DNA of 52,657 nucleotides from Bacteroidota bacterium (GTDB lineage Bacteria > Bacteroidota > Bacteroidia > B-17B0 > Aurantibacillaceae): contig JAUXSA010000157.1 of NCBI GenBank assembly GCA_030681615.1, positions 1 through 52,657 of the forward strand, in the 5' to 3' direction. The position numbers were made by a program, and so were the translations under genes. Positions 35,180 through 38,343 of this stretch are shown one piece after another; position 1 is the stretch's first letter; each line of letters starts with the position of its first letter. The notes under the pieces are model-generated. The model did no database searches and was not told the origin of the DNA. It was given only the letters and a program-made list of their open reading frames with translations.

Positions 35180-35899
35180 ATGCCATTTCGAAATAAGATA
35201 AAGAATGAAGCCATTAAACAAAAATATGATAAGTCAGATTTACTTAAATCTGATTATTTATTAGGCTTGGAAAATAATATCGAAATTTATTATGCTCCCG
35301 TTGATTTTTTGAATACCGAGGCATCGGTCGTTATGGTTGGAATAACACCAGGATGGACTCAGATGGAACTTTCTTATAGAACTGTTATTAAATCATACAA
35401 AGAAAGTAGTGATTGGTTTGGATCATTAAAATCTGGAAAAAAAGCAGCTAGTTTCGCAGGGTCGATGAGGACGAATCTTATTAGAATGCTTGATGAATTA
35501 CGGTTAAATAACAAACTTGGAATAAACTCTACACAAGAATTATTTGACATTAGAAATTCTGTTTTACATACAACATCTATTTTAAAGTATCCAGTATTTC
35601 ACAAAAACAAGAATTACAATGGAAAAAATCCATCAGCGATAAACACCAAAATTTTATGGAACTCTATTAAGCAAAATTTTGTTCCCGAAATCAATTCCTT
35701 TAAAAACACATTAATCATCCCTCTAGGGAATAGCGTTTCCGAGGTACTAAAAAAATTACAGGAAGACAGCTTAATTAATCAAAATATTATTTTAGACTAT
35801 TTCCCTCATCCCTCCGGTGCAAATGGTCATCGTAAAACTCAATTTGAAGAATATAAAGATATTATGAAGAGCCAAATAGAAAACTGGAAATACAAATAA
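35180..35899 (+). CDS. uracil-DNA-glycosylase-superfamily-like protein (Mug/TDG-like motifs)
   Basis: A 239-residue cytosolic protein. Residues 49-58 (SVVMVGITPG) and 207-218 (YFPHPSGANGHR) resemble the two active-site motifs of Mug/TDG glycosylases (GINPG and PNPSGLSR) in the right order and near-normal spacing. A strand IIPLGNSVSEVL lies between them where Mug has a similar block. The central helix SMRTNLIRMLDEL also fits. The catalytic Asn of Mug is Thr56 here, so glycosylase activity is uncertain. It follows dnaG by 28 bases on the same strand. The fold match is made by eye and is not certain. Confidence 0.6.
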   Translation: MPFRNKIKNEAIKQKYDKSDLLKSDYLLGLENNIEIYYAPVDFLNTEASVVMVGITPGWTQMELSYRTVIKSYKESSDWFGSLKSGKKAASFAGSMRTNLIRMLDELRLNNKLGINSTQELFDIRNSVLHTTSILKYPVFHKNKNYNGKNPSAINTKILWNSIKQNFVPEINSFKNTLIIPLGNSVSEVLKKLQEDSLINQNIILDYFPHPSGANGHRKTQFEEYKDIMKSQIENWKYK

Positions 35900-35900
35900 T

Positions 35901-35990
35901 TCCTTTGAGAACTTTGCGCCTCCTTTGTGAACTTCGTGGTTAAATCTATCCACAAAGAGCACGAAGAATTTTTCACAAAGGACACTGAGA
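35901..35990. repeat. intergenic palindrome, CCAC-type (copy B3)
   Basis: The left and right halves are imperfect reverse complements. The minus-strand left half and plus-strand right half both start CCAC(G/A)AAG and continue in CACAAAG-like units about every ten bases, to end near AATT. It separates the glycosylase-like gene from the T9SS carboxypeptidase. The fold is weaker than in copies B1, B2 and B4. Confidence 0.55.
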
Positions 35991-35991
35991 A

Positions 35992-38343
35992 TTATTTTTC
36001 TACAACTACTTTCTTCACCACTTCTTCTCCACCCGCTTTTATTTTTACGAAATAAATTCCGGCAGCCTGGTTCTCAATATTAATGTTTGAGTTTAAAGCG
36101 TTATTGTTCTGTTGCTGATAAACTAATTGTCCTAACGAGTTATACACCGCTACATCAATAGAAATTCCATCAGGATTTGATAAATTAAAATTACCATTAG
36201 ATGGGTTGGGACTTAAAACAATATTATCGCCAACTAAAATATTTATAACAACACCTACAGGGCCCGAGGAAATAACACGGATCAAAAGGTCGTCAAAATA
36301 AAAACCGTCTTTATTGACACTAAAATCTGTATTGAATAAAAATCTTAATTTAATTGTTTGTCCTAAATATAATGAAAGGTCAATATCCTCTTTTACGAAC
36401 GCGTCCTGGATGCCATCATAAATAGGTACCGTTCCTCCAAATGATGTAGGAGCTGTTTCGTACTTACCGCATAAAGGTGCCCAGGTTGTACCATCGTTTG
36501 TAGTTATTAGTATTTGTGTTTTATCACCATCTTTTTCCATTTCAAAACGTGTGTAATATTGTAAATGTGCATATACCGCATTGGTTAACACCATTGGATT
36601 TTTTAATGTGATAGATTTGGTAAGGTTCCCCGTATAATTACCTGTAGGACTCTCGGTAATACTGGTTGGTGGGGAAACAAATTTTGTTGTACTCAATCCC
36701 CAGGTACCTGATGTAGTATAATTTGTTGCGGTTGAATTTCCATTATCGTAAATCAAAGTTAAAGGTGTGCCATACACTTTAGTCACTGTGTCTAAACGTG
36801 TAAAAGCACCGTTGTTAACTGCAATTGCATATTTCACAGCTTGTCCCGGTGTTAAGCCTGTATTTAAAACAAAAGAAATAGAATCGCTGATCGTTTGATT
36901 TTGAATTAAAGTAGAATAAATTTTTGGCGCACCAACCGATGAAATGTCTGTACCAACAGGAACTATCGAAACAGTAAATGTACCAGCTTGTAAGCCTAAG
37001 CGTTGCAAATTGTAATTTAAATAACCATTGCCGCTTAAAAATTTATCGCGCGCATCTCTTGCAATGGCGTACTTGCCAACCATCTTTGCAAGATTATAGT
37101 TTTGATTGAAAGTAGTTTTACACACATCCAGGATACGTGATGATGCCGGCCAGAAACCGTCATTGGCTGCTCCCGCTTCTGGTGTCATAGCTAAGATCAT
37201 TGGTTTTGTAGTTTGCTCGCCGTACATCCAGTCATCACTATCACCATTTACAACATAGTTCACTGTTTGATCGCCGGTACCGTATAAAAATCTGCTTGTC
37301 TCGGTTAATAGAACAGACCAATTCACAAAAGTAGCACTATCAGGCGTGTAGATACTTGGAAGATAACCCCATGGATAGATCAATAAATTACCATAAGTAT
37401 GCGCGTTCAATGCCGTAGCAAATTGGTGTGCATTACAAAAATTTCTAATGGCTTGTGTTTCAGGTTCGCTAAAAGCACTTGGGCCACGGTATGTATCGCT
37501 ACTGGTAGTTGGCGAAGAACCTGTGTTATCAAACCCCCAATTGTAACCATAATTCCTGTTAAGATCAACACCAAAATTAGAACCATTGTTTCTGCGATTC
37601 TTGCGCCACATACCGCCACCGTTTGGATTGGTTGTTTGATTATACACATAACCATCCGGGTTAACGCAAGGCACAAAATATAATTCTGTATTATCTATTG
37701 TAGCTTTAATATCAGCATTAGTTGCATAATTTTCTAATAGATACCACATGTAAAAGATCGTTTGTGATAAACTTGCCGCTTCTCTGGCATGGTGCAAAGC
37801 GTTATAAAACACCTCAGGCTCTGCTTCGTCTACATTTGGATTATCACTTATCCTTACCCAATAAAGTTCTCTGCCTTCGTGGCTAAGCGGACTTAACGGC
37901 TGCTTCACATTAATTAAATTAGGATATAATAATGCCATACTATCAAGGATCTGTTTCATTTCATTCCAGGTAAAATATCCACCCATAGTTCCTAAGTGAA
38001 AATAAGTTGGCTTTGTAAGGTTTGATTTATTACAATCAATAGGAGGCATTGAACGTTCGGCCATGTCAGCTTTATTACGGGCTTCATAAAATTTGGCCAT
38101 ATCGTAGATCAAAATTTTATGTTTTACGCCATTCGCTTTTAATACTTGCAATTCAGAGTCGCTTATCTCAGCGGCAATGCCATCATCCTGCACATCGCTG
38201 TGATCGATAGTAATACCTAACTGTAATAATTTTATAGCGAGTTGCTCATCACCCTGCATTAAAACCTTATGGTACTTTAAAGTTTGTGCGTTAATAGCGG
38301 TTAGGCTAAACAATACAATTATTCCTAAAATAATTTTTCTCAT
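35992..38343 (-). CDS. M14 zinc carboxypeptidase with T9SS sorting domain
   Basis: A 783-residue secreted metallopeptidase. The signal peptide ends INAQ (20). The M14 domain spans about 115-425: zinc ligands His185 and Glu188 in HHAREA and His315 in ALNAHTYGN, the substrate-binding block NPDGYVYNQ, RNYGYNWGF, and catalytic Glu389 in MTPEAG. It is followed by a beta-rich region (435-690) that includes a jelly-roll-like YTTSGTWGLSTTKFVSPP and the FYFDDLLIRV mark of a concanavalin-like module. The last 75 residues are the T9SS domain (LSPNPSNGNFNLSN ... AAGIYFVKIKAGG). It is likely a surface or secreted peptide-degrading enzyme, 11 bases downstream of a prolyl oligopeptidase gene on the same strand. 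Confidence 0.93.
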   Translation of the reverse strand: MRKIILGIIVLFSLTAINAQTLKYHKVLMQGDEQLAIKLLQLGITIDHSDVQDDGIAAEISDSELQVLKANGVKHKILIYDMAKFYEARNKADMAERSMPPIDCNKSNLTKPTYFHLGTMGGYFTWNEMKQILDSMALLYPNLINVKQPLSPLSHEGRELYWVRISDNPNVDEAEPEVFYNALHHAREAASLSQTIFYMWYLLENYATNADIKATIDNTELYFVPCVNPDGYVYNQTTNPNGGGMWRKNRRNNGSNFGVDLNRNYGYNWGFDNTGSSPTTSSDTYRGPSAFSEPETQAIRNFCNAHQFATALNAHTYGNLLIYPWGYLPSIYTPDSATFVNWSVLLTETSRFLYGTGDQTVNYVVNGDSDDWMYGEQTTKPMILAMTPEAGAANDGFWPASSRILDVCKTTFNQNYNLAKMVGKYAIARDARDKFLSGNGYLNYNLQRLGLQAGTFTVSIVPVGTDISSVGAPKIYSTLIQNQTISDSISFVLNTGLTPGQAVKYAIAVNNGAFTRLDTVTKVYGTPLTLIYDNGNSTATNYTTSGTWGLSTTKFVSPPTSITESPTGNYTGNLTKSITLKNPMVLTNAVYAHLQYYTRFEMEKDGDKTQILITTNDGTTWAPLCGKYETAPTSFGGTVPIYDGIQDAFVKEDIDLSLYLGQTIKLRFLFNTDFSVNKDGFYFDDLLIRVISSGPVGVVINILVGDNIVLSPNPSNGNFNLSNPDGISIDVAVYNSLGQLVYQQQNNNALNSNINIENQAAGIYFVKIKAGGEEVVKKVVVEK

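Follow-up and report, generated by a model that had tools for sequence, protein, structure and literature searches.

A putative DNA glycosylase gene behind dnaG in a Bacteroidota bacterium points to a separate, patchily inherited family of the UDG superfamily

Introduction

The stretch of DNA analysed in this work, hereafter the window, is contig JAUXSA010000157.1 of the Bacteroidota bacterium assembly GCA_030681615.1 at its full length of 52,657 nucleotides. Behind dnaG it carries a gene whose product shows two short motifs resembling those of the active site of mismatch uracil glycosylases, with Thr at the place of the catalytic Asn. A sequence-only reading had labelled the product as Mug/TDG-like and had left two options, a glycosylase of new specificity or an inactive binder of DNA bases. 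The locus thus raises the question of which kind of UDG-superfamily protein is encoded, whether it would be an enzyme, and on which base and to what end it would act. On the basis of the sequence comparisons presented here, a glycosylase of new specificity appears to be the best reading.

Results

The gene and its conserved motifs

An intact open reading frame with an ATG start was found at positions 35180 to 35899 of the forward strand, with 28 bases between the stop codon of dnaG and its start, confirming the location behind dnaG that had been described. It encodes a protein of 239 amino acids devoid of Cys residues, and its assignment as a UDG-superfamily DNA glycosylase gene, with GITPGxxQ and PHPSGAN as signatures, is based on the reading frame, alignment, profile and structural model. 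In the translation GITPG occupies residues 54-58 and PHPSGANGHR residues 209-218, exactly as claimed. From sequence and alignment, the motif 1 region (GITPGWTQ, residues 54-61) was located at 35339-35362 and the motif 2 region (residues 209-218, with residue roles that we infer below) at 35804-35833, whereas a putative motif 3 region (residues 130-152, HTTS...YPVF...NYNGKNPS) was assigned by spacing to 35567-35635, all of them on the forward strand. According to sequence and model, the strand formed by residues 50-54 is followed by TPG (56-58), and HPSGAN (210-215) is followed by a helix (216-235); this is the layout of the UDG superfamily, in which a core strand leads into motif 1 and motif 2 precedes the last helix.

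Conservation was determined in a set of 15 rows, composed of the window protein and 14 relatives obtained by whole-protein comparison without motif patterns, and in a second, wider one of 100 rows, where counts are biased upwards because 86 of them came from scans with one of two motif patterns; the latter omits the fragment L102 and also L002, which duplicates L022. The two motifs appeared in the same order in the 15 rows of the first set, which rules out a chance motif and supports the claim that both active-site motifs are present. G54, I55, T56, P57, G58, Q61, P209, H210, and P211 were invariant in these rows, as were Y38, P40, A48, K87, G94, R97, S133, and G183; the Thr reported where the family-2 Asn is expected was therefore a constant feature (T56, 15/15). 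In the motif-biased wider set T56, P57, G58, Q61, K87, R97, S133, and H210 were found in 100/100 rows, and N145 (Asp in the other 3), N215, and R218 in 97 rows each. H217 was present in 69/100 rows only. Position 132 was variable (T in 77 rows, V in 9, S in 6, A in 3, I in 3, and C in 2), and the conserved loop NYxGxxP (residues 145-151) after the motif 3 strand contains position 149, which is Lys in the window protein and His in 50/100 rows. Position 42 was the sole column with Asp or Glu in 100/100 rows, position 170 being acidic in 99, and no conserved acid was found inside motifs 1 or 2 among the 100 rows.

Membership of the UDG superfamily

When scanned alone, the window protein matched nothing in Pfam, NCBIfam or PADLOC up to E 10, and searches of PDB chains with the protein or with profiles retrieved no UDG entry and no glycosylase. 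The relatives were more informative. Among the 63 aligned members, 61 matched the Pfam family PF03167 at E ≤ 0.1, with 8.6e-8 as the best value; the window protein was one of the two unmatched. Of the members scanned singly, L003, L022, L028 (27.1 bits), and L021 (24.4 bits) reached the curated cut-off of 24.3 bits, the relatives with 73 and 77% identity scoring 26.5 and 24.3 bits, respectively; L016, with 23.9 bits, was 0.4 short. The cut-off is thus reached through close relatives and not by the window protein by itself, which was the outcome of the profile search proposed together with the Mug/TDG label.

A structure unrelated to the UDG fold had been named as grounds for abandoning the glycosylase reading, and the UDG fold was found. 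The AlphaFold2 model, built from the 63-row alignment, had a mean pLDDT of 95.1 and a pTM of 0.91. The first 35 Foldseek matches all belonged to the UDG superfamily (best E 1.1e-3, probability 1.00), with modest E-values and large rmsd. In VIA-align the best match was 4zbx, the family-4 UDG from S. tokodaii (Z 10.9, 3.6 Å over 159 residues), followed by 1ui0 (10.7), UdgX (10.5), 3ikb, an unnamed S. mutans protein (10.3), and TDG (10.1), values within 1 Z of each other being considered tied. The window protein belongs to the UDG superfamily; judged from the model, the fold is settled, and the tied values single out no UDG family as the nearest.

Position among the UDG families

The family HMM was compared with 59 reference UDG proteins, sorted by motif into 20 family-4, 28 UNG, 3 family-5-like, 1 SMUG2-like (matching 5h0j at 2e-68), 2 COG1573-like, and 5 HDG-like; these references came from the phylum of the window and contained no Mug or TDG proper. 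The best score was 7.4 bits. Conversely, the family-4 and UNG HMMs reached at best 3.7 and 5.1 bits on the 100 rows of the family; the family-4 HMM reached 45.4 bits with family-5-like references and 14.8 bits with one COG1573-like, and did not find the UNG and HDG-like references. Alignment by hhalign of the family with the family-4 and UNG alignments, which are narrow and drawn from Bacteroidota genomes, was uninformative, with probabilities of 7.8 and 1.8, respectively. The scores on the 59 references, with Brig1 and Brig3 (discussed below) compared by description only, argue for a family of its own within the UDG superfamily, with its own active-site signature; the 7.4-bit ceiling equally means that sequence alone puts the family near no one reference. 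No named family had been recognized for this pair of motifs, and in agreement none was matched in Pfam, NCBIfam or PADLOC, the only hit being one PHROG of unknown function at E 0.025.

The Mug/TDG label did not hold. According to Xia et al. 2017 (PMC5387724), the third residue of motif 1 is Asn in family 2 (GINPG), and the motif 2 His is missing from families 2 and 6. The window protein has Thr56 instead of this Asn and presents His210 in motif 2; it shares with family 2 the fold (TDG, Z 10.1) and the GIxPG and PSG spelling. Besides, the NCBIfam Mug models TIGR00584 and NF007570 were each matched in 1 of 15 members (E 0.067 and 0.074) and not by the window protein. The extra His noted with respect to Mug does exist as H210, but this is the ordinary motif 2 His of UNG-type enzymes, whereas H217 is not conserved. 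The surprise expressed at the missing Asn was overstated, since families 4, 5, and 6 are also described as having no Asp or Asn in motif 1 (PMC5387724).

Considering the GITPG and HPSGAN motifs, family 4 (UDGa; S. tokodaii 4ZBX and T. thermophilus 1UI0) seems the closest in catalytic logic. It gave the best fold matches (tied with others, as indicated above) and shares with the window protein a motif 1 without Asp or Asn and a motif 2 His; catalysis in family 4 was proposed from mutants to be carried by this His together with a motif 3 Asn, and Glu47 of Tth UDGa faces the C5 of uracil (PMC5387724). An acid or amide is located four residues past the motif 1 Pro in both, Glu47 in family 4 and Gln61 in the window protein, a correspondence made by spacing. 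In contrast, motif 1 is GE[AG]P in family 4 and GITP in the window protein, the stretch between motifs 1 and 3 is longer in the latter, and the uracil-reading Asn80 of family 4 corresponds, by spacing, to T132, where T, V, S, A, I or C were found. The S. tokodaii enzyme has an Fe-S cluster (PMC11078745), whereas the window protein, which lacks Cys, has none. The family-1 motif GQDPYHG was absent from the window protein, and so was the GEQP of UdgX, whose motif 3 loop could be related to that of the window protein only by eye. One other PF03167 protein was found in the window genome, a family-1 Ung (L120).

Distribution and phylogeny

Within the genus of the window 40 genomes were searched, and 3 carried the gene (that of the window, G034 with 77% identity, and G012 with 73%); it was in none of the 60 more distant genomes completing the first 100 searched, and a profile search in 296 genomes of the phylum retrieved two, the window genome and one other. 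Higher frequencies were obtained in Bacillota. In the family that includes the Paenibacillus locus L030 the gene was present in 33 of 118 genomes, two of these having only broken or short pieces and five giving two-part matches; in the class of the Bacillota locus L036 it was present in 32 of 200, with one copy each. Scanning the genome collection by pattern yielded at least 568 confirmed related stretches, 80 of which were kept. Members were also found in 34 of 72,556 plasmid records, 12 of these 34 being inspected. In the viral collection a pattern scan recovered 7 contigs, including one short piece; an initial scan of this collection with a single protein found none. The absence from 50,697 phage records at E ≤ 1 says nothing either way. 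Inheritance of the family is thus patchy and the gene is accessory, being commoner outside the phylum of the window than within it.

A tree of the 100 rows, obtained by a quick method and with several long branches, had two sides. The first (clade 1) comprised 85 rows (69 Bacillota, 8 Bacteroidota, 2 Acidobacteriota, 1 Chloroflexota, and 5 unlabelled), and the second (clade 2) the remaining 15, which came from plasmids and viral contigs. The window protein grouped with L022, L003, and other Bacteroidota (SH-aLRT 99). The glycosylases of L024 and L037 were longer, with 312 and 317 amino acids. Record L009 (NZ_CP154897.1, 1-6813), labelled as a plasmid, carries gltB, proB, proC, and rtp, and because of these genes it is probably a chromosome fragment.

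Genomic neighbourhoods

Twelve dnaG loci, of 30 fetched, were compared, and only in the window and in G034 was the glycosylase gene located behind dnaG. In G019 and G012, with dnaG 96 and 85% identical to that of the window, dnaG is directly followed by the convergent gene that comes next in the window, without glycosylase, and the G012 copy is on another contig; a single gene has thus been gained or lost at this locus. By reading, the neighbours in the window itself look like housekeeping or secreted-protein genes.

Partner genes were looked for in 86 loci, taking six ORFs on each side by a simple longest-ORF caller and clustering them by single-linkage BLAST. No partner gene recurring across clade 1 was found in these loci. 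The largest clusters of neighbours, from 22 and 17 loci, resembled by their letters an ABC-transporter ATPase and a sensor kinase and were scattered in position. Neighbours were shared among Paenibacillus loci that are closely related (one cluster at position -1 in 5 loci and one at +1 in 4), and L024, L037, and L044 had a common gene at -1. In clade 2 the upstream ORFs were compared in 13 of 15 loci, and five displayed a related ORF of about 90 amino acids just upstream (L008:5570-5842, L010:473-751, L011:5571-5843, L014:5572-5856, and L097:4588-4932); it was weakly DUF4258-like, below the cut-off, in two of the three scanned, the third giving no match, and it is a possible partner or regulator of the glycosylase.

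For defence genes, 132 near and 111 far neighbour ORFs were compared in 40 loci picked by hand from the 86. At E ≤ 1e-10, 197 PADLOC models were matched near and 84 far, figures that count models and not proteins. Many matches corresponded to generic methyltransferase, ATPase or HTH models, and the far-neighbour control also matched PADLOC, with methyltransferase models among the matches listed. No enrichment was drawn from these counts, because they refer to models and to the best 25 of each set, and many of the models are generic. Ten near neighbours were scanned singly for defence models: three matched (in L019, L024, and L044) and seven did not (in L017, L018 twice, L020, L021, L047, and L057). 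A protein matching capP, capH, and RmrA/HTH models is encoded next to the glycosylase gene at L024:3929-5050 and L044:6682-7830, and a gene related to this regulator adjoins the glycosylase in L037. L019 has an HEC-06/SspE-like gene upstream, and in L016 an AAA ATPase matching mad3, PtuA, and GajA models is encoded two genes upstream. A PDC-S05 match near L027 was set aside, as the same model also matches the E. coli control. A methyltransferase model found no match near the family gene in 32 genomes or records. The neighbours of the relatives are mostly unremarkable.

The member from Bacillus amyloliquefaciens adjoins rtp, a 3-ketoacyl-ACP reductase gene, and a DUF948 gene, a locus that we take to be the yoxD-yoxC-yoxB place of B. 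subtilis. By this gene order, the uncharacterised YoxB of B. subtilis would be a family member. Regulation by sigma-B is reported for yoxB-yoaA (PMC1925097), and yoxB is among the genes listed in a paper on the SigB regulon (PMC7824861), both sources giving regulation only. Such a sigma-B operon setting fits repair as well as defence.

Comparison with antiviral glycosylases

Two antiviral enzymes resemble the window protein in being UDG-superfamily glycosylases in accessory settings. Brig1 is an alpha-glucosyl-hmC glycosylase (Hossain et al. 2024) whose model best matched the S. tokodaii family-4 UDG (Dali Z 9.2) and many homologues of which lie in putative defence islands (PMC11078745); Brig3 is a 5hmC glycosylase in which Glu55 reads the hydroxymethyl group and Asn225 is inserted in the DNA (PMC13160076, preprint). 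Brig1 Q81, W122, and residue 147 are listed beside Brig3 E55, W100, and residue 127 (PMC13160076). The best structural match of Brig1 is the same S. tokodaii enzyme as for the window protein, although for the latter it was tied with UdgX and TDG. Compared by description, Gln61 is a candidate for the role of Brig1 Gln81 and Brig3 Glu55, and Asn215 for that of the inserted residue, as an Ala precedes Asn225 in Brig3 and Ala214 precedes Asn215 in the window protein. Conversely, Brig3 has Asn50 in motif 1 where the window protein has Thr56, and no conserved acid was found at the place of Brig1 Glu147 or Brig3 Asp127, which by spacing is T132.

Other reported antiviral glycosylases are Brig2, for modified thymine, and Dag1 and Dag2, for modified guanine bases (Getz 2025 preprint, as cited in PMC13216743). 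The family may be one of these three and perhaps is already described in that preprint. As a string, GITPG led to no glycosylase paper by title in the open-licence literature.

Proposed function

The proposal that follows takes the observed family, fold, residue conservation, patchiness, and absence from sister genomes as its starting point, and puts forward the catalytic steps, substrate, and role by analogy. The protein is very probably an active glycosylase of the UDG superfamily, and its substrate is quite likely other than plain uracil. Repair of uracil is not expected, because the genome encodes an Ung as well and the position that spacing assigns to the uracil-reading Asn is occupied by T, V, S, A, I or C. 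The enzyme would be a stand-alone, monofunctional DNA glycosylase. A base flipped out of the DNA would enter a pocket between motifs 1 and 2, where Gln61, at a place that is C5-adjacent in related enzymes, may help to pick a C5-substituted base over uracil. His210 would stabilise the leaving base, Asn145 of motif 3, and not Thr56, would position the water as family-4 Asn89 does, and Asn215 would occupy the space left in the helix, like Asn225 in Brig3; the product would be an abasic site. The most likely use would be against phages with modified DNA, as for Brig1 and Brig3. We give an even chance to this complete reading, in which an active glycosylase that removes a base other than uracil, probably one modified at C5, serves against such phages. 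The patchy distribution, the 34 plasmid records, the 7 viral contigs, and the defence-type neighbours at some loci counted in favour of a defence role; the seven of ten neighbours without a defence model, the lack of a clade-1 partner in the loci compared, and the acid of Brig1 Glu147 and Brig3 Asp127, for which no counterpart was found, counted against it.

Much of the same evidence bears on a repair role, in which the glycosylase would act on endogenous or stress-induced base damage, such as deaminated or oxidised pyrimidines, and would have been kept in some lineages and lost in others, with no part in phage interactions. The position of the B. amyloliquefaciens member at what is presumably the yoxB place, with the sigma-B regulation mentioned above, agrees with this account, as do the single copy in 32/32 positive genomes of the class of L036 and the fact that no partner gene recurs across clade 1. 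The strong patchiness (33/118, 32/200, and 3/40 in the genus of the window), the carriage on plasmids and viral-collection contigs, and the defence-type neighbours at some loci are at odds with it. We consider repair possible, with a chance below even, and the antiphage role is somewhat favoured over it. A broader version of the antiphage role, rather unlikely in our estimation, is that of an unnamed, widespread anti-phage family with Thr-type motif 1 that includes YoxB and has an undescribed specificity, for instance for 5-hydroxymethyluracil or another C5-hypermodified pyrimidine; B. subtilis is the host of phages with 5-hydroxymethyluracil DNA.

Loss of activity was also considered. A catalytically dead protein of UDG fold that binds a DNA base or an abasic site would be compatible with Thr in place of the motif 1 Asp or Asn and with the lack of a conserved acid within the two motifs. 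This is improbable, since the GITPG loop, Gln61, and His210 are invariant across phyla (15/15 rows) and families 4, 5, and 6 are enzymes without that Asp or Asn (PMC5387724); for these reasons Thr56 would not be a sign of decay. A decayed or inactive enzyme was thus rejected as the main reading, and the inactive base binder suggested earlier is disfavoured. Even less probable, to the point of being very doubtful, is a UdgX-like self-cross-link to the abasic site through a residue in the loop after motif 3. The structural match to UdgX (Z 10.5) and the conserved NYxGxxP loop, with His at position 149 in half of the 100 rows, recall the cross-linking His that UdgX has in its extended motif 3 loop; the window protein, however, has Lys at this non-conserved position and lacks GEQP, and the loops were matched by eye. 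In summary of the earlier claims, the family label was wrong in detail and the pointer to an unnamed glycosylase family was right.

If the proposed active glycosylase is real, the UDG superfamily would gain another type of active site, with activation of water without motif 1, and the apparent B. subtilis member would open its substrate and role to testing in a model organism. As a defence enzyme, it would give a function to a common 'hypothetical protein' of Bacillota and widen the set of base-excising antiviral enzymes; as a repair enzyme, it would show which lesion some bacteria must handle beyond Ung.

A palindrome downstream of the gene

Between the convergent glycosylase and peptidase-like genes an imperfect palindrome was found at 35901-35996, with perfect arms of 11 nucleotides (35921-35931 and 35972-35982) and a folding energy of -26.3 kcal/mol (z -3.7). 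It had 6 partial matches elsewhere in the genome, and G019 and G012 have a different sequence at this place. The palindrome is likely a terminator or a REP-like element.
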